The notes under the pieces are model-generated. The model did not search any database. It was not told where the DNA came from and saw only the letters and a list, made by a program, of their open reading frames with translations. A DNA stretch of 23,239 bases from a virus, in IMG/VR virus record IMGVR_UViG_3300027499_000038, positions 1-23,239 of that record; one strand, 5' to 3'. Every line of letters starts with the position of its first letter. Positions within the stretch are counted from its first letter, which is position 1. Below, piece after piece: positions 10,439-21,359 of this stretch. The position numbers and the translations under genes are program-made.

Positions 10439-10942
10439 ATGATTATTGGAACATTTACTGCCAAAGTTTGGCCTGAGTTTATAACACGGCGAGATGGAAA
10501 GATCGCCGAACGTATCGCTGTAGGTGATACCAAAAATCTTTACAACCGTTGGGACTCTGAATTCCCAGAACAGCATCAATGTATGGTAGATCCTAAACAA
10601 ACTTTGTTTGAAGGAAACACAGTGCATACCCATCATGCTTTTGATACTATTGATGAAGATTATGGCAATTGTGATTGGAAGAGGTATGCTAAAGACGGTA
10701 TTCATCTTACAAATTATATCTATAATAAAATTAAAGAAGGCACCACAGATCATGTTGTTGTGTGGGAATGGGCCAATGGCAACCAACATAATAGATTGTA
10801 CGAAAATCATGAAGTGTCGTATACTGTACTTGGTGTAGTGCCTGCTAGCTACATAATTAAGAATGCAAAGATCGATGGTTATGACTCACAAGGTCGACCA
10901 TTCTATAGATTTCCATATGAGAAAGGTGTAAAGTATGTCTAA
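10439..10942 (+). CDS. Hypothetical protein, 167 aa
   Basis: Seen: ATG 10439 is preferred over an in-frame TTG at 10433; the spacing from a weak GAG fits. The protein begins MIIGTFTAKVWPEF, is rich in aromatics and histidines (EQHQCMVDP, VHTHHAFDTIDEDYGNCDW), and ends with VPASYIIKNAKIDGYDSQGR. It looks like a soluble mixed alpha/beta protein. No family recognised. Base composition is A/T-richer than its neighbours. Its end overlaps the DUF1599-like gene by 8 bases, so it is in the same transcription unit as the DNA-modification genes, but there is no direct evidence of a shared role. Confidence 0.75.
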   Translation: MIIGTFTAKVWPEFITRRDGKIAERIAVGDTKNLYNRWDSEFPEQHQCMVDPKQTLFEGNTVHTHHAFDTIDEDYGNCDWKRYAKDGIHLTNYIYNKIKEGTTDHVVVWEWANGNQHNRLYENHEVSYTVLGVVPASYIIKNAKIDGYDSQGRPFYRFPYEKGVKYV

Positions 10943-11267
10943 TGAACGTGAATCAGTAAAAGTCCTGCAAGAGTGTATCGACCTGCAGATCCGTAAGTCT
11001 AAAGACTATCAGAACCCCAACTCGAACGTAGTGCAGGCAATGCACTATCGCCGTGGTGTAGACTCTATCCATGACACAATGCATGGCAAGATGCTTCGTG
11101 CTCAGTCTCTCCTCGAGTCTGGCTCTGCTGCCAACTTCGAGTCTCTCGAAGACACTTACAAAGATCTGATCAACTATGCTAGCTTCGCTGTTTCGTACAT
11201 TCGTGGCAAGATGGAAGGCCAAGATCCTAACCGTGACTACCTTAATCGTCCTAAGAAAGGCAATTAA
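10935..11267 (+). CDS. DUF1599/Nmad1-like nucleotide-modification-associated protein
   Basis: Seen: 110 aa, helical. KSKDYQNPNSN near residue 20, then DTMHGKMLRAQSLLESG and LEDTYKDLINYASFAVSYIRG. The pattern KxxDY ... K..R...L ... E(D)TYxDLxNYA is that of the DUF1599 family, also called nucleotide modification associated domain 1. Known: the family was linked by genome context to hypermodified-base pathways of phages; its biochemistry is not settled. Context: its TAATG overlap with the dCMP hydroxymethylase gene (11265-11269) supports a linked role. The family call comes from motif memory and should be treated as probable. Confidence 0.65.
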   Translation: MSNERESVKVLQECIDLQIRKSKDYQNPNSNVVQAMHYRRGVDSIHDTMHGKMLRAQSLLESGSAANFESLEDTYKDLINYASFAVSYIRGKMEGQDPNRDYLNRPKKGN

Positions 11268-11917
11268 TGCTTATTGTTGAAGATATTCGGTGGCACTTCA
11301 TCGATGAGCTGAAGTATGGTAGGTTTGTCACTGACAAGACCGGTGTCAAGACCATTGAGATGATCGGTGCTTGCTTTGAAGCCAATCATCCTACCATCTT
11401 CGGTGATGTCAATGATGAGTACGTAGAGCGTGAGCTCGAGTGGTATAAGTCGATGTCTCTGTATGTCAAGGATATTCCTGGCAAGACACCGGCTATCTGG
11501 GAACAGGTTGCTTCGTCTGAAGGCAAGATCAACTCCAACTATGGTTGGGCTATCTACAGCGAAGACAACGGTTTCCAATATCTCAACGTTCTCCGTGAAC
11601 TATGTGTCAATCCTAACAGCCGCCGTGCTGTGATGATCTATACTCGTCCTACTATGTGGCAAGATTATAATCGCGATGGCATGTCTGATTTCATGTGCAC
11701 CAATGCTGTACAGTACATGATTCGTGATGGCCAGCTGGTTGCCGTAGTGCAGATGCGTTCCAATGACGTAGTCTTCGGTTATCGTAACGACTATGCATGG
11801 CAGTCCTATGTTGCTGATCAATTATCAAATGATCTTGGTCTTAAAGTATTGCCAAAGATTATCTGGAATGTCGGCAACCTGCATGTGTATGAACGTCACT
11901 TTGATAAGGTAAAGTAA
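11267..11917 (+). CDS. gp42: dCMP hydroxymethylase, T4 gp42-like
   Basis: Seen: 216 aa with near-identical blocks to T4 gp42, such as VDKTGVKTIE / VTDKTGVKTIE, NDEYVERELEWYKS, KDIPGKTP, INSNYGWAIYSEDN and RSNDVVFGYRNDYAWQ. Catalytic Cys144 (SDFMCTN) and Asp175 (RNDYAW) are 31 residues apart, as are Cys148 and Asp179 of T4. Known: this thymidylate-synthase-fold enzyme adds CH2OH from methylene-tetrahydrofolate to dCMP; the Asp, in place of the Asn of thymidylate synthase, selects cytosine. It ends about 30 residues before the T4 protein. Inference: phage DNA contains 5-hydroxymethylcytosine or a derivative. It overlaps the deaminase gene (TAATG at 11915-11919). Confidence 0.95.
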   Translation: MLIVEDIRWHFIDELKYGRFVTDKTGVKTIEMIGACFEANHPTIFGDVNDEYVERELEWYKSMSLYVKDIPGKTPAIWEQVASSEGKINSNYGWAIYSEDNGFQYLNVLRELCVNPNSRRAVMIYTRPTMWQDYNRDGMSDFMCTNAVQYMIRDGQLVAVVQMRSNDVVFGYRNDYAWQSYVADQLSNDLGLKVLPKIIWNVGNLHVYERHFDKVK

Positions 11918-12360
11918 TGAATAAATGGACACGGCGTTACTTGGATATTGCCAAGGAAGTTGCAACCTGGTCTAAAGATCCTTCTAAAAAGATTGGAGCA
12001 ATAGCAGTTGGTGACAAGGGACAGATCCTGAGTCAAGGATACAATGGTTTCCCACGCGGTGTCAAGGATACAAGTGCCCGTTACGATATCCGCGAGGACA
12101 AGTATAAGTATGTGGTGCATGGTGAGATGAACGCCATCTACAATGCATGCAACTCTGGTGTGTCGCTTAATGGTGCAACACTCTATGTCACCGGTCTTCC
12201 TGTCTGTTCTGAGTGCGCCAAGGGTATCATCCAGGTCGGTATCAAGAAGGTGATCATGGAATATCCTAAAGATATTCCTGACTTCTGGCGTGAATCAATG
12301 GCACTTACCACCCAGATGTTCCATGAAGCAGGTGTAATGTTTTTATGTCATGAGGAATAA
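11917..12360 (+). CDS. cd: dCMP deaminase
   Basis: Seen: 147 aa. Zinc and catalytic motif HGEMNAI at residues 68-74 (His68, Glu70) and PVCSEC at 95-100 (Cys97, Cys100), with SKDPSKKIGAIAVG and GYNGFPRG typical of dCMP deaminases. Shorter than the T4 enzyme (193 aa). Known: it converts dCMP to dUMP for dTTP synthesis. Here it competes for the same substrate as the adjacent hydroxymethylase, so the gene pair would balance hydroxymethyl-dCTP against dTTP. No thymidylate synthase is in this window. Confidence 0.93.
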   Translation: MNKWTRRYLDIAKEVATWSKDPSKKIGAIAVGDKGQILSQGYNGFPRGVKDTSARYDIREDKYKYVVHGEMNAIYNACNSGVSLNGATLYVTGLPVCSECAKGIIQVGIKKVIMEYPKDIPDFWRESMALTTQMFHEAGVMFLCHEE

Positions 12361-12362
12361 TA

Positions 12363-13511
12363 GTGGAATTAACACAATATTATGACGAATATCTAAGATA
12401 TTTTGAGTTGGCCAAGGACCAACAGGCCAAGTGCAACCTCGGCACAATTCCATATAAAGAGTCGGCCATGGCCGATGACCTGTTAGAGAACGTAGAACTA
12501 TACGACGTTGTCGAACGCAAGTTCGCCGGCTTTTCTCAGATTGTGAACGACGTCTTTTATGGTTGGACTGACAAGCATCCATACTTCCATAAGATGGAAC
12601 AGGGTATCCACACACGGGAGCGTGGGTACATCGCCCGTGACTGGACAGGCAAGCATGCCGACTTCAGTCTGCCCGAGTGGTTGTACATCTTTATCCTGCA
12701 CCGGGTGACCGGTTCCGGCATCAACTACTCGAAGAAGCCATCGGGTTATCACAACACCTTGCTACCACATCTGTATGAATGCATGTCGATCGAGGATATG
12801 GTTCGTCGTGTGAACCACCATCCGTATCCGTTCTATACGTCGGTTGGTTATCAGTTCCCTGCATTCCCTAAGGTTCCAGCTGGTGCAAACTACAAGAAGG
12901 GTGGCGATTACTACCTGTCTGAGTATGCTCCACGACTGGCCAGAGATCTTGCCGAATGGCTTCAGGGCAGTAACATGAAGAGAGATCTTCGTGAGATTGG
13001 TGACTGGATGCTGGCATGGAACGTAGCCAACGGTCTCCGTCAATACAAGTTCCAGTACGCAGCGGTTGTGGCCGACATCGCTGACTGGTATCCTGAGTAC
13101 TGCAACCTCGATAGTCCATTCTACTACGGTACGAATGCAGTCGAGTGTATCTCTTATCTGGCCAACAACACAGACAGAATGAAACAGGAACTATTCCTTG
13201 ACAAAGTGATGGAGAAGATTTATGCCGATACAGGTGCGTACCCCTACAACGCCGAAGATGTATGTTGCGACTTTATCAGATGGGTCGAGAACTATGTTAA
13301 GCCAGGATCAGATTATGACCACCTTTGTTTCGACTCCATCTGGTCCTCCTGTAGAATTAAAGATCACCCATATGGTCGTCAACGAGCTATGCTCGATCTT
13401 GGCCTCATCGACACCTTTAACAAATTGTCATCTCACCCCTCAGACGACTATATACTAAAGCAGGCAGGTATTTCTGTCCAGCAATATAAAGAAATGGTGA
13501 AAGCGCTATGA
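12363..13511 (+). CDS. Pyrophosphorylase / amino-acid:DNA transferase-like protein (AGPT-like), tentative
   Basis: Seen: 382 aa, GTG start set by GAGGA at 12352-12356, six bases upstream. No signal peptide. Blocks: EWLYIFILHRVTGSGINY (residues 105-122), GLRQYKFQYAAVVADIADWY (224-243) followed by YYGTNAVECISYL, then AEDVCCDFIRWVENY (297-311). Known: the alpha-glutamyl/putrescinyl thymidine pyrophosphorylase family of hypermodified phages has a comparable order: a D-hydrophobic-R helix, a V..DL segment leading to GpGA, and a CLCEFDKY-like helix; members replace a pyrophosphate on the base with an amine or amino acid. Inference: this could be a divergent member acting on a hydroxymethylated base. 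Context: directly after gp42 and dCMP deaminase, overlapping the PLP-like gene by 4 bases. The family link is by pattern only. Confidence 0.45.
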   Translation: MELTQYYDEYLRYFELAKDQQAKCNLGTIPYKESAMADDLLENVELYDVVERKFAGFSQIVNDVFYGWTDKHPYFHKMEQGIHTRERGYIARDWTGKHADFSLPEWLYIFILHRVTGSGINYSKKPSGYHNTLLPHLYECMSIEDMVRRVNHHPYPFYTSVGYQFPAFPKVPAGANYKKGGDYYLSEYAPRLARDLAEWLQGSNMKRDLREIGDWMLAWNVANGLRQYKFQYAAVVADIADWYPEYCNLDSPFYYGTNAVECISYLANNTDRMKQELFLDKVMEKIYADTGAYPYNAEDVCCDFIRWVENYVKPGSDYDHLCFDSIWSSCRIKDHPYGRQRAMLDLGLIDTFNKLSSHPSDDYILKQAGISVQQYKEMVKAL

Positions 13512-14410
13512 GTCATAATAACCACGTAATCGATGGATACAACCAGGATGTCGGCTACAGATCTTGGGAAGAGGCCAAGGACTATTATCTAGAACTTGCT
13601 GATACATGGACAGATCCGTATCCAGATCCAGTCGTAACCGTGCATGACGGTGTTCGTTGTGTCCGTGACGATCTTATCACAGGAACCAAGGTTCGTGGTG
13701 GCGACTGCCTGATGTCAAGGATCAATCAGTCGACAATTGTGTATGTGCAACCACGTACAGGTCTTGCCGGTGTCTCTATCCTTGATGTTGCCAAACGTTA
13801 TGATAAGAAGGTGAAACTGTTCATGCCTTCTGCTCAACGCATCTCACATCATCAGGCGTGTTGCATTGAGCGTGGTGCAGAAGCATCGTTCCATCGTATT
13901 GCTGCGATGCCGAACCTGAACAAGATCGCCAAGGACTGGGCAGACTCACAGGAGGATGCATTCTTCGTTCCGCTTGGTCTAAAGCATGAACTCGTGACTG
14001 CTGGTATCGTCAAGGCAGCATCTAAGATCCCTGCTCCTGATGAGGTCTATGTTGCCATCTCGACCGGTGTTCTTTCGAGAGCGATGCAGATTGCATGGCC
14101 AAATGCCAAGTTCCATTCGGTTGCTGTATCGCGTAACCTAAAGGCTGGTGAACTTGGTAGAGCAGATGTCATCTCAGAACCGATGGCATTCCAACAGAGT
14201 GAGAAGGCTGAGAACCTGCCACCATTTCCGTGCATAGATACATATGACGGTAAGGTATGGAAGTACATTCCGAAGAATACCGGCCGCAACATCCTGTTCT
14301 GGAATGTCGGCAAGGAACCAGTCCTCAACGATCCTACCATCTACGATCGTGTAGATTCTTACCGTGACTGGCCAAAAAAAGATGTACAATTTGCCACACT
14401 TGATGTATAG
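13508..14410 (+). CDS. Fold-type-II PLP-dependent enzyme-like protein
   Basis: Seen: 300 aa. RDDLITGTKVRGGDCLM (residues 53-69) matches the DD...GxKxRxxxxL pattern of fold-type-II PLP enzymes (ACC deaminase, cysteine/threonine synthase relatives), which puts Lys61 as the candidate Schiff-base lysine. GLAGVSILDVAKRYDKKVKLFMP fits the substrate/phosphate-site helix, and VYVAISTGVLSRAMQIAWPNAKFHSVAV fits the glycine-rich cofactor loop and next strand. The usual SGN-type loop is replaced by PRTGLAG. Inference: an enzyme making or altering an amine or amino-acid group; PLP enzymes occur in known DNA hypermodification pathways. ATGA overlap with the gene before it; its stop is in a TAGTG overlap. 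A run of seven A lies near its end. Confidence 0.6.
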   Translation: MSHNNHVIDGYNQDVGYRSWEEAKDYYLELADTWTDPYPDPVVTVHDGVRCVRDDLITGTKVRGGDCLMSRINQSTIVYVQPRTGLAGVSILDVAKRYDKKVKLFMPSAQRISHHQACCIERGAEASFHRIAAMPNLNKIAKDWADSQEDAFFVPLGLKHELVTAGIVKAASKIPAPDEVYVAISTGVLSRAMQIAWPNAKFHSVAVSRNLKAGELGRADVISEPMAFQQSEKAENLPPFPCIDTYDGKVWKYIPKNTGRNILFWNVGKEPVLNDPTIYDRVDSYRDWPKKDVQFATLDV

Positions 14411-14411
14411 T
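14383..14411 (+). promoter_or_regulatory. TGTACA-type promoter at end of PLP-like gene
   Basis: TGTACA (14383-14388), exact 17-nt spacer, TATAGT (14406-14411). A start near 14418 would fall at the ATG 14419 of the next gene, giving a leaderless or almost leaderless mRNA, or may serve the genes beyond. Intragenic, so moderately supported. Confidence 0.45.
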
Positions 14412-14418
14412 GAATAAT

Positions 14419-15450
14419 ATGAAAACGCTTGTAACCTCGCCATTCACCCATATCTCCTCCAACATTCATTCGCATCGTGCTGCTCAGGCTGCAATCTATG
14501 CAAACCAACTAGAGGAGAATGGGTATACCGTACATCTAGACCGTACTGGTGATATCCACCCTGATATCAATTCATTCGATAGTATCTGTGTCTACCACGG
14601 CAATGACTGGGGTGGATCTCTTAACCTATTCGGTGGAATGAAGAACTACGGTAACATCGATAACCTGATTAGGTACTCTCAGTTCAAGGGTACTGTGTAC
14701 TCGTTATGGATCGATCATCCTAAATACTCTGAGATGCTTGAGCCACGTATGAAGGGTGAGATCCATCCTGACTGGGCAAAGGTCGACTGGGAAAACCTGA
14801 AGCGTATCGAGAATACTGCCAAAACTCTTAGACAGATAACTCCAACAACCAAGGTGGTTGTAGGCGATAGCCATGCTATCTGCATGTACCGTCCTGGTTG
14901 GTTCGTTAACTCTGTACCTTTCAAGACTCTACATGGTGCACTCAAGGAAGGCCTTCAGTCGTTCATCCAACCACATCATGAGATTGCAGAGTTCTACTTC
15001 GGCAACATCGACGTACGCCACCATCTGATGCGTCAACCGAATCCTGAAGAGGCAACACGTGATCTTGCCAAGAGATACTACGAGCAACTATCTCAACTAG
15101 ATCTTGCTAAGGTCTATGCATACGAGCTGCTTCCTATCGAGAACGAGTCTCGTGCACTTCCTAAGACTGGTTACTATAAGGGCACACCGTTCTATGGTGT
15201 ATGGGAACATCGTGAGACTGTTCGCCTGATCTTCAAAGATGAGATGAAGAATCTCTGTGCACAGGGTAGTGTCAACTTCATTGAGTGGACTGACTACCTC
15301 AAGAATGACAAGGGCGAACTTGACTTTGAGCATATGGAAAAGCCAAAGTCTGTGCACCTATCGCGTAATTCATATCCGCATTGGCAAGGTCGTAAGTGGA
15401 GCGGCTTGCCTGAACATAAACCATCAACTCTAGAGGACTTCTTTATATAA
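14419..15450 (+). CDS. SGNH/GDSL-like hydrolase-like protein, tentative
   Basis: Seen: 343 aa from ATG 14419; an alternative GTG at 14410 overlaps the previous stop, and neither has a good SD. The N-terminal part (MKTLVTSPFTHISS...) looks Rossmann-like; the middle has KVVVGDSHAICMY, like SGNH block I (GDS), then EFYFGNIDVRHHL, like the FGEIDxRxH variant of block III. A late KSVHLSRN has the conserved His, but the expected Asp three residues before it is not evident. Known: SGNH proteins include esterases and acyl/acetyl transfer enzymes. Inference: it could act on a modified base or sugar, given its neighbours; an altered catalytic triad is possible. The C-terminus overlaps the DUF3310-like gene (TAATG). 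Confidence 0.45.
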   Translation: MKTLVTSPFTHISSNIHSHRAAQAAIYANQLEENGYTVHLDRTGDIHPDINSFDSICVYHGNDWGGSLNLFGGMKNYGNIDNLIRYSQFKGTVYSLWIDHPKYSEMLEPRMKGEIHPDWAKVDWENLKRIENTAKTLRQITPTTKVVVGDSHAICMYRPGWFVNSVPFKTLHGALKEGLQSFIQPHHEIAEFYFGNIDVRHHLMRQPNPEEATRDLAKRYYEQLSQLDLAKVYAYELLPIENESRALPKTGYYKGTPFYGVWEHRETVRLIFKDEMKNLCAQGSVNFIEWTDYLKNDKGELDFEHMEKPKSVHLSRNSYPHWQGRKWSGLPEHKPSTLEDFFI

Positions 15451-15862: not shown

Positions 15863-16846
15863 ATGGGAATTGAAATCAAGGTACCAATCGAGAAGCTTCG
15901 TGAACGCAAGCTCTTCGTCGCTGCTCCAATGTATGGTGGTCAGTGTCAGGGCATGTTTGCCCGTTCGATCGCCGACCTCTCGGCACTCTGCACTCACTAT
16001 GGAATTCAGGTAAGATTCTACTTCCTGTTTAATGAGTCACTCATCACTCGTGCACGTAACTATTGCGCAGACGAGTTCATGCGTTCAGGTGATACACACT
16101 TGATGTTCATCGACTCTGATATCGGCTTCAATGCTAATGATGTCATCGCTTTGATGGCACTACAGAGTGAGAATCCGGATGATGACCAGTACGACATTCT
16201 TGCCGGTCCTTATCCTAAGAAGTGCATCAGCTGGGAAAAGATCAAGCATGCCGTAGACAAGGGCTTTGCTGACGAGGATCCTAACCGTCTTGAGAAGTAT
16301 GTAGGTGACTATGTCTTCAATCCAACAGGCGGTACTGGTGAGATTCCTCTTGGAGAACCAGTTGAAGTGTTGGAAGCTGGTACCGGATTCATGATGATCC
16401 GCCGTAATACTTTTGAGAAGTTCCAGGAAGCATATCCTCAGCAGTTGTATAAGCCTGACCATGTTCGTACCGAACACTTTGATGGTTCACGTTACATCAT
16501 GGCCTTCTTCGATACGCCTATCGATGCAAAGCGTGCGCAGTTGGTACCTGAACTACAGGCATACATCGAGAAGAATCCTGAAGCCACAAGTAATGAACTG
16601 ATTGAGTTTATCAAAGATGCCAAGAGTACTGCTCGAGATCGTCCTGAGTACTCGGAACGTTATTTGTCTGAAGACTATATGTTCTGTCAGTGGGTACGTA
16701 ATGCTGGCATGAAGGTATGGTTGTGCCCATGGATGCAGCTTCAGCATGTAGGCATGTATGTCTTCGGTGGTTCGTTGGTCGATCTGGCTCAGATCGGTGC
16801 GGCTGCTACTGCAGACCAAAGTGTGTTGAAAAAGAATAAGAAGTGA
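15863..16846 (+). CDS. GT-A-type glycosyltransferase
   Basis: Seen: 327 aa. LFVAAPMYGGQCQGMFARS near residue 17, a nucleotide-sugar DxD site FIDSDIGF (DSD at residues 84-86), GTGFMMIRRNTF in the middle, and SEDYMFCQWVRNAGMKVWL near the end with LQHVG. This is the usual order of phage GT-A (GT2-like) transferases. Known: such enzymes occur in T4-like phages and some glycosylate hydroxymethylated DNA or virion parts. Inference: given gp42 and its neighbours, the acceptor may be hydroxymethylcytosine or its derivative. AAGGA precedes ATG 15863. Last gene before the clamp promoter. Confidence 0.75.
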   Translation: MGIEIKVPIEKLRERKLFVAAPMYGGQCQGMFARSIADLSALCTHYGIQVRFYFLFNESLITRARNYCADEFMRSGDTHLMFIDSDIGFNANDVIALMALQSENPDDDQYDILAGPYPKKCISWEKIKHAVDKGFADEDPNRLEKYVGDYVFNPTGGTGEIPLGEPVEVLEAGTGFMMIRRNTFEKFQEAYPQQLYKPDHVRTEHFDGSRYIMAFFDTPIDAKRAQLVPELQAYIEKNPEATSNELIEFIKDAKSTARDRPEYSERYLSEDYMFCQWVRNAGMKVWLCPWMQLQHVGMYVFGGSLVDLAQIGAAATADQSVLKKNKK

Positions 16847-21124: not shown

Positions 21125-21201
21125 GCGCCGTTAGCTCATCTGGATAGAGCGCGAGACTTCTAATCTTGAGGCAGTAGGTTCGAGTCCTACACGGCGCGCC
21201 A
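21125..21201 (+). tRNA. tRNA-Arg (TCT)
   Basis: Acceptor GCGCCGT/ACGGCGC, anticodon stem CGAGA/TCTTG (one G-T) with loop CTTCTAA (anticodon TCT at 21159-21161), T-loop TTCGAGT, encoded CCA at 21199-21201. It would read AGA codons. Confidence 0.93.
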
Positions 21202-21205
21202 ATTC

Positions 21206-21280
21206 ACTCCTGTAGCTTAAAGGTGAAGCCAGCCGCTCATAACGGCTTGAGTGTGGGTTCAAGTCCTACCAGGAGTACCA
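21206..21280 (+). tRNA. tRNA-Met or Ile2 (CAT)
   Basis: Acceptor ACTCCTG/CAGGAGT, anticodon stem AGCCG/CGGCT, loop CTCATAA (anticodon CAT at 21238-21240), T-arm loop TTCAAGT, encoded CCA at 21278-21280. The A1-T72 pair differs from the unpaired end of bacterial initiators, so elongator Met or, if lysidine-modified, Ile2; sequence alone does not decide. Confidence 0.9.
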
Positions 21281-21281
21281 C

Positions 21282-21359
21282 GTCACGGTGGCAGAGTGGT
21301 CCAATGCAACGGATTGCAAATCCGTAAAGCCGCCGGTTCGAATCCGGCCCGTGACTCCA
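21282..21359 (+). tRNA. tRNA-Cys (GCA)
   Basis: Acceptor GTCACGG/CCGTGAC, anticodon stem ACGGA/TCCGT, loop TTGCAAA (anticodon GCA at 21316-21318), discriminator T as usual for tRNA-Cys, encoded CCA at 21357-21359. One base separates it from the preceding tRNA. Confidence 0.94.

Follow-up and report, generated by a model that had tools for sequence, protein, structure and literature searches.

Gene organization of the X382 locus

The window analysed here, an entire IMG/VR record of 23,239 bases, carries T4-like core genes in the order major capsid, tail tube, UvsW, gp47, gp46, gp45, gp44 and gp62, named by sequence and conserved order. Stenotrophomonas phage DLP_6, pelagiphages and cyanophages have capsid proteins 60–66% identical to that of the window. 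The gene in question, X382 (12363–13511, plus strand), encodes a protein of 382 aa, and this reading frame, proposed in an earlier note on the same DNA, was confirmed. Its GTG start is located 2 nt past the stop of the upstream ORF and coincides in position with the ATG starts of its relatives. On the same strand, X382 is preceded by a gene for a DUF1599/nucleotide modification associated domain 1 protein (10935–11267; PF07659, E=7e-7), a T4 gp42-like dCMP hydroxymethylase gene (11267–11917; 67% identity to T4 gp42) and a dCMP deaminase-like gene (11917–12360; PF00383, E=3e-21; phrog_174). It is followed by the genes for a PLP-dependent enzyme (13508–14410; phrog_7093, E=2e-40), whose first 4 nt are also the last 4 of X382, and for a protein of 346 aa (14410–15450). 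The hydroxymethylase that had been named as the neighbour of X382 is thus present, but does not adjoin it, the dCMP deaminase-like gene lying between the two.

The gene order in the relatives was DUF1599, hydroxymethylase, X382, PLP enzyme and 346-aa protein, with three variable members: the dCMP deaminase and a UDG-like gene between hydroxymethylase and X382, and Ins1 between X382 and the PLP gene. The DUF1599 gene is located directly upstream of the hydroxymethylase gene, and this order is also kept in relatives. Most X382-bearing records are fragments; among the 49 distinct well-flanked loci (>4 kb on either side), the PLP enzyme and the 346-aa gene were found within 6 kb of X382 in every case, the hydroxymethylase in 34 (it was absent from this interval in 15) and Ins1 in 32. 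The module is kept even in lineages that are only 29% identical to X382 (L366 and L367). Ins1 is a second unnamed family of approximately 330 aa that fills the gap between X382 and the PLP gene in many phages (for example L025:3483–4487, L063:2989–3972 and L328:7935–9038); neither the window nor a 164-kb record with X382 has it.

The UDG-superfamily-like gene, which occurs between the hydroxymethylase or deaminase gene and X382 in many relatives, encodes approximately 120–140 aa with the motif HPSPxNRxL and matches PF03167 below threshold (L004:7651–8007, L025:1951–2361, L049:7598–8002 and L063:1447–1854). In L205 (4218–5280), X382 is broken into two ORFs with a gap ahead of the PLP gene, possibly by an insertion or a sequencing error.

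Distribution and conservation of the X382 family

At least 485 relatives of X382 were found in IMG/VR, a first scan having given 109 close ones. No Pfam or PHROG family matched X382, and tblastn with X382, its divergent clade and Ins1 gave no match in 50,697 phage records. The genome-contig matches were metagenome bins of mixed taxa; these are probably misbinned phage sequences and uninformative on the host.

Forty diverse members, the most distant at 28% identity, could be aligned from end to end, indicating strong purifying selection; 56 residues were invariant down to that identity. The three blocks on which the earlier note had based its assignment (residues 105–122, 224–263 and 297–311) proved to be real: covering 19% of X382, they contain 22 of the 56 invariant residues. 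These are W106, H113, R114, G117 and S118 in the first block; F230, Y232, A233, A234, D238, D241, Y254, G256, N258 and C262 in the second; and E298, D299, C302, D303, R306, N310 and Y311 in the third. Two further stretches missing from that note, 47–63 and 158–170 (YTSVGYQFPAFPK), are as conserved as the three blocks.

Association of X382 with a cytosine-type hydroxymethylase

In this enzyme family, the residue at the position of thymidylate synthase (TS) N177 specifies the substrate, Asn for uracil and Asp for cytosine. Aligned with T4 gp42 and the M6 enzyme, the hydroxymethylase of the window keeps Asp179 of T4 gp42 at this position (RSNDVVFGYRND). In environmental phages, Asp at the substrate position goes together with contigs of modified cytosine (PMC8670742). 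The hydroxymethylase was of the Asp type in all 158 scored copies from X382/Ins1 loci and of the Asn type in all 43 scored copies from ADDT/HMUDK_hel loci, counts in which overlapping loci of one contig recur, so that the copies are not all independent. The suggestion, drawn earlier from the neighbouring gene, of a cytosine-derived substrate is well supported by these counts and by the T4 gp42 alignment, and the link of the X382 cassette to cytosine is strong.

A lineage of large phages lacks a nearby hydroxymethylase gene. In two of its long records, a more remote region encodes an Asp-type copy with the motif GLTFD, in addition to an ordinary thymidylate synthase; several others, which may be incomplete, show none.

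A uracil-type cassette was observed in L187 (3034–6861), consisting of ADDT, two P-loop kinase-like genes, HMUDK_hel and an Asn-type hydroxymethylase; it is a thymine counterpart of the X382 cassette.

Predicted fold of X382 and its relation to ADDT and HMUDK_hel

An initial AlphaFold (AF2) model built on 21 close relatives had a pLDDT of only 58.9. After addition of a clade of 28–31% identity, spotted next to the PLP gene in L244, the model reached pLDDT 87.7 and pTM 0.87 and was nearly all helical. Foldseek searches with this model against the viral structures of BFVD gave three apparent relatives of X382 itself at the top (68, 27 and 21% identity), followed by the ADDT-domain protein A0A6J5LCY1 (prob 1.00, TM 0.42/0.48, E 0.0045), the helical domain of the 5-hmdU DNA kinase of Delftia phage PhiW-14 (HMUDK_hel; prob 0.98, TM 0.38–0.42), a viral endonuclease III (prob 0.93) and aGPT-Pplase1 (prob 0.92). 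The TM-scores against the named homologues were only 0.31–0.48, with E-values of 0.0045–0.16, as would be expected for distant homologues. Against the PDB, the best match, to an 8-oxoguanine glycosylase of archaeal origin, was weak (prob 0.63, E 0.88). We read the predicted structure as the helix-hairpin-helix (HhH) glycosylase-type fold common to the aGPT/ADDT proteins, and the model supports a fold shared by X382 and ADDT at the superfamily level only. The UniProt name of the 68%-identical protein A0A6J5L8T5, 'amino acid:DNA transferase domain-containing', was not used as proof, because our own Pfam scan does not reproduce it.

At the sequence level, the curated models gave a different result. 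Neither PF18724 (ADDT) nor PF18723 (HMUDK_hel) matched any of the 40 X382 members, even at E-values up to 10. ADDT gave a single weak sub-threshold stretch in the long X382 records, compared with 159.7 bits for the M6 control, and, at E-values of up to 1, HMUDK_hel matched none of 14 records with X382 or Ins1, compared with 189.6 bits for its M6 control. Membership of X382 in ADDT or HMUDK_hel, tested in this way, failed.

Profiles were then compared by hhalign within a panel of approximately 40 phage families, including those built from recovered relatives of ADDT (M6 gp51) and HMUDK_hel (M6 gp55). In this panel, Ins1 matched X382 best (31.2 versus 21.8 for the next family) and ADDT matched HMUDK_hel best (35.0 versus 23.4), while X382 scored 29.8 with HMUDK_hel and 27.9 with Ins1; its top score, 31.5 with an unrelated family, was counted as a chance match. 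The X382–HMUDK_hel comparison gave scores of 26–30 and E-values of 0.006–0.016 in a matching register at low probability, and that between X382 and ADDT gave nothing. Comparisons with shallow alignments (Neff 1.6) were uninformative. The alignments of X382 with Ins1 and with HMUDK_hel have a common register, which pairs VVADIAD with VVTDL, GTNAVECI with GPGAIRGL and GGTGxFDG, and AEDVCCDFIRW with xEHxLCEFDKY and xEDKxCxxYK. By fold and, weakly, by profile, X382 thus seems to resemble these families, but it falls outside the curated models. Most members of all four families have a third-block motif of the form E/D/Q-x3-C-x-aromatic; the E/D-x3-C part also occurs in 4 of 37 unrelated families and is weak evidence by itself. 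The motif AEAETVCC of one divergent ADDT clade, considered as a bridge to X382, did not hold.

The proposed AGPT-like identity is therefore supported for the predicted fold, which appears to belong with ADDT, HMUDK_hel and aGPT-Pplase and, behind them, the HhH DNA glycosylases, but not for sequence-level membership, as PF18724, PF18723 and the ADDT profile failed and the HMUDK_hel profile was weak. The order of the blocks does resemble that of aGPT/ADDT-type families in our reading of the alignments, which the profile alignments back in part, and the structural comparison that had been suggested as a check returned the ADDT-domain and PhiW-14 proteins described above.

The same structural matches could be taken to mean that X382 is a phage HhH DNA glycosylase, which would remove cytosine that is unmodified or carries the wrong modification, either to check quality or to attack host or rival DNA. 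The 8-oxoguanine glycosylases among the PDB matches and the viral endonuclease III in BFVD are consistent with this, as is the UDG-like gene that shares many X382 cassettes. However, no PDB match reaches significance, the lowest E being 0.88, and the position at which the catalytic Asp would be expected after the HhH hairpin varies among D, E, T and M (residue 250 in the window, placed by eye and not by structural superposition). A glycosylase would also fail to explain why X382 is always linked to a homologue of an M6 hypermodification enzyme, the PLP enzyme, and we consider this role improbable.

The PLP-dependent enzyme and the 346-aa protein

Pseudomonas phage M6 possesses enzymes by which an amino acid is attached to 5-hmdU and then trimmed. 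The PLP enzyme encoded behind X382 is homologous to M6 gp52 (BLASTP E=7e-7), and an M6 gp52 profile matched 113 distinct ORFs in X382 loci. Its Lys61 is invariant, M6 included, together with an STG/SSG loop. From sequence, we assign this protein to the M6 gp52 family (phrog_7093), with the PLP lysine present; the type of reaction is not readable from the sequence. This M6-gp52-like enzyme in the same operon, missed by the earlier note, is the best functional clue for X382.

Relatives of the PLP enzyme were also observed under 'DNA modification methylase' annotations in Erythrobacter phage R6L (L356) and Microcystis phage Mae-JY30 (L357), in the latter adjoining two ParB/sulfiredoxin genes, suggesting that the family serves further DNA-modification systems.

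The 346-aa protein combines an N-terminal segment like T4 beta-glucosyltransferase (BGT; NxFGG) with a C-terminal SGNH/GDSL-like signature (GDSH...GNIDxRHH...SVHLS). The likeness to T4 BGT was detected by hhalign (prob 55%, E=1e-4, 49 columns around NxFGG), and Pfam searches of 18 family members gave PF09198 in 7 and Lipase_GDSL in 2, all sub-threshold. The strongest conservation falls on GDSH, GxIDxRHH and SxH, which look to us like an SGNH-type active site. A first impression of a glycosyltransferase was abandoned, as these residues fall in the SGNH-like C-terminal part and the BGT-like segment is N-terminal only. A protein that recognizes hmC-containing DNA and adds or removes an acyl or other group is plausible, and it may serve in activation, capping or trimming. 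Relatives were found in T4-like phages of Aeromonas, where, in 44RR2.8t, the match lies within the N-terminal part of a protein of approximately 795 aa (L358, 8004–10391).

The cassette could also act on nucleotides or metabolites instead of DNA, for instance in the nucleotide or amino-acid metabolism of the phage. The surrounding genes are nucleotide-metabolic (MazG-like, DUF1599, dCMP deaminase and dCMP hydroxymethylase), as such a role would predict. Nevertheless, the fold relatives of X382 act on DNA and the third gene, that of the 346-aa protein, has the T4 BGT-like segment, and we regard a purely metabolic cassette as highly improbable.

Comparison with known hypermodification systems

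The M6-like cassette consists of a hydroxymethylase, Nmad5, aGPT-Pplase1, a kinase, a radical SAM protein, a PLP enzyme and aGPT-Pplase2 (PMC9476957), and a 5hmdU DNA kinase acting before alkylamine transferases has been described (PMC6449724). In the 5-hmdU cassette of Pseudomonas phages M6 and SN1, these are gp55 (aGPT-Pplase1), gp54 (kinase), gp53 (radical SAM), gp52 (PLP) and gp51 (aGPT-Pplase2/ADDT), the ADDT gene gp51 being directly followed by the PLP gene gp52. The X382 cassette likewise has a pyrimidine hydroxymethylase, a helical aGPT-type gene directly before a phrog_7093 PLP gene and often a second helical protein. Unlike that of M6/SN1, its hydroxymethylase is of the Asp type (cytosine) and not the Asn type, a BGT-N/SGNH-like protein is always added, and kinase, radical SAM, Nmad5, ADDT and HMUDK_hel are missing by sequence.

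This last difference was seen in several searches. Profiles of the M6 kinase, radical SAM, Nmad5, ADDT and HMUDK_hel found no match in X382 loci; the kinase-profile matches obtained there turned out to be the clamp loader gp44 and one gp46-like ORF. A Pfam search of long records (up to 256 kb) gave no kinase, ADDT or HMUDK_hel above cut-off, and PF18748 (5-hmdU DNA kinase) gave none above cut-off in 18 X382/Ins1 records. As far as these sequences indicate, X382 does not keep the ADDT-style partnership of a 5-hmdU DNA kinase with a uracil-type hydroxymethylase. With no M6-type kinase or radical SAM protein beside X382, activation of the hydroxyl would have to differ, or else to come from an unrelated kinase or a gene elsewhere.

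The comparison with M6 offers another role for X382, namely that of a partner or regulatory helical subunit like M6 gp55 (HMUDK_hel/aGPT-Pplase1), which would not be the transferase itself but would present the hydroxymethyl group to, or activate it for, a further cassette enzyme. The best non-chance profile match of X382 is with HMUDK_hel and not with ADDT, the PhiW-14 HMUDK_hel is among its best structural matches, and the frequent presence of Ins1 after X382 recalls M6, which has one protein of each kind. On the other hand, X382 would have to act without a second helical protein in the many loci that lack Ins1, such as the window and the 164-kb record, and no kinase partner was found in the X382 loci and records searched. 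We judge a subunit role to be rather unlikely.

Other systems act on cytosine. As in T4 hmC glucosylation (gp42 plus beta-glucosyltransferase), the X382 cassette has the same dCMP hydroxymethylase, a T4-like context (gp23, gp19, gp44–47 and gp62) and a BGT-like segment in the 346-aa protein; unlike T4, it is without an intact BGT and has X382 and the PLP enzyme in addition. Environmental phages with 5-carbamoyloxymethylcytosine have a carbamoyltransferase adjoining an Asp-type hydroxymethylase and likewise derivatize hmC with a non-sugar group, but by other enzyme families, with no aGPT-fold protein or PLP enzyme described (PMC8670742). In Synechococcus phage S-B43, CmoX and CmoY form 5-carboxymethylcytosine-glycine (PMC12783734), also a cytosine–amino acid linkage in phage DNA; in contrast to the scheme proposed for X382, it is formed by a carboxymethylation that uses Cx-SAM and by a ligase that requires ATP, and not from hmC or with an aGPT-fold protein. 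Glucosyl and arabinosyl hmC are further cytosine hypermodifications (PMC8056088, PMC6024577).

Proposed role of the X382 cassette

Some form of hmC hypermodification by the X382 cassette is likely, and the group attached to hmC is probably an amino acid or an amine. As the complete explanation, we propose, with modest confidence, a post-replicative hmC hypermodification cassette in a T4-like phage. In the first step, which is well supported, the gp42-type enzyme would form hm-dCMP, leading to hmC in DNA at replication. X382, an HhH-fold protein structurally akin to the aGPT-Pplase/amino-acid:DNA transferases, would then flip or bind hmC in duplex DNA and use an amino acid or amine to replace or derivatize the oxygen of its 5-hydroxymethyl group, Ins1 possibly being a second protein that shares this task in many relatives; amino-acid transfer as the chemistry is about as likely as not. 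By homology to M6 gp52, the PLP enzyme would trim the amino acid once attached, decarboxylation being the simplest possibility. More speculatively, the BGT-N/SGNH-like protein might bind hmC-containing DNA and activate, acylate or de-acylate the modification. The product of the cassette should protect phage DNA against restriction.

A tentative extension, less probable than the scheme above, is a kinase-independent amino-acid or amine route on hmC in DNA, in which a new HhH-fold family would work with a PLP enzyme and a BGT/SGNH-like protein. Such a route would be widespread among aquatic phages that have not been cultured, and none of the isolated phages searched has it. Known aGPT-type amino-acid or amine hypermodification concerns thymine (5-hydroxymethyluracil), and the X382/Ins1 branch, carried by aquatic T4-like contigs numbering in the hundreds as well as by other large phages, would apparently be a second one, on hydroxymethylcytosine. 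Our literature search, which most subscription papers lay outside, found no description of aGPT-fold proteins acting on cytosine. If the proposal is true, a new natural DNA base and a new enzymatic activation of hmC are predicted, which could provide tools for hmC labelling and bear on the evasion of restriction and of hmC-targeting defences. The present work also annotates two large families currently named 'hypothetical protein'.

Additional genes in the window and related loci

In L361 (14347–15546), a gene of 399 aa with a PCxGxSxFS-like motif, possibly a cytosine methyltransferase, is inserted behind the 346-aa gene. In the window, a phrog_1574 protein (15863–16846) with sub-threshold likeness to glycosyltransferases (PF13506, E=0.045) is kept between a DUF3310 gene and gp45, and three clustered tRNA genes, Arg(tct), Met(cat) and Cys(gca), are located at 21125–21359.
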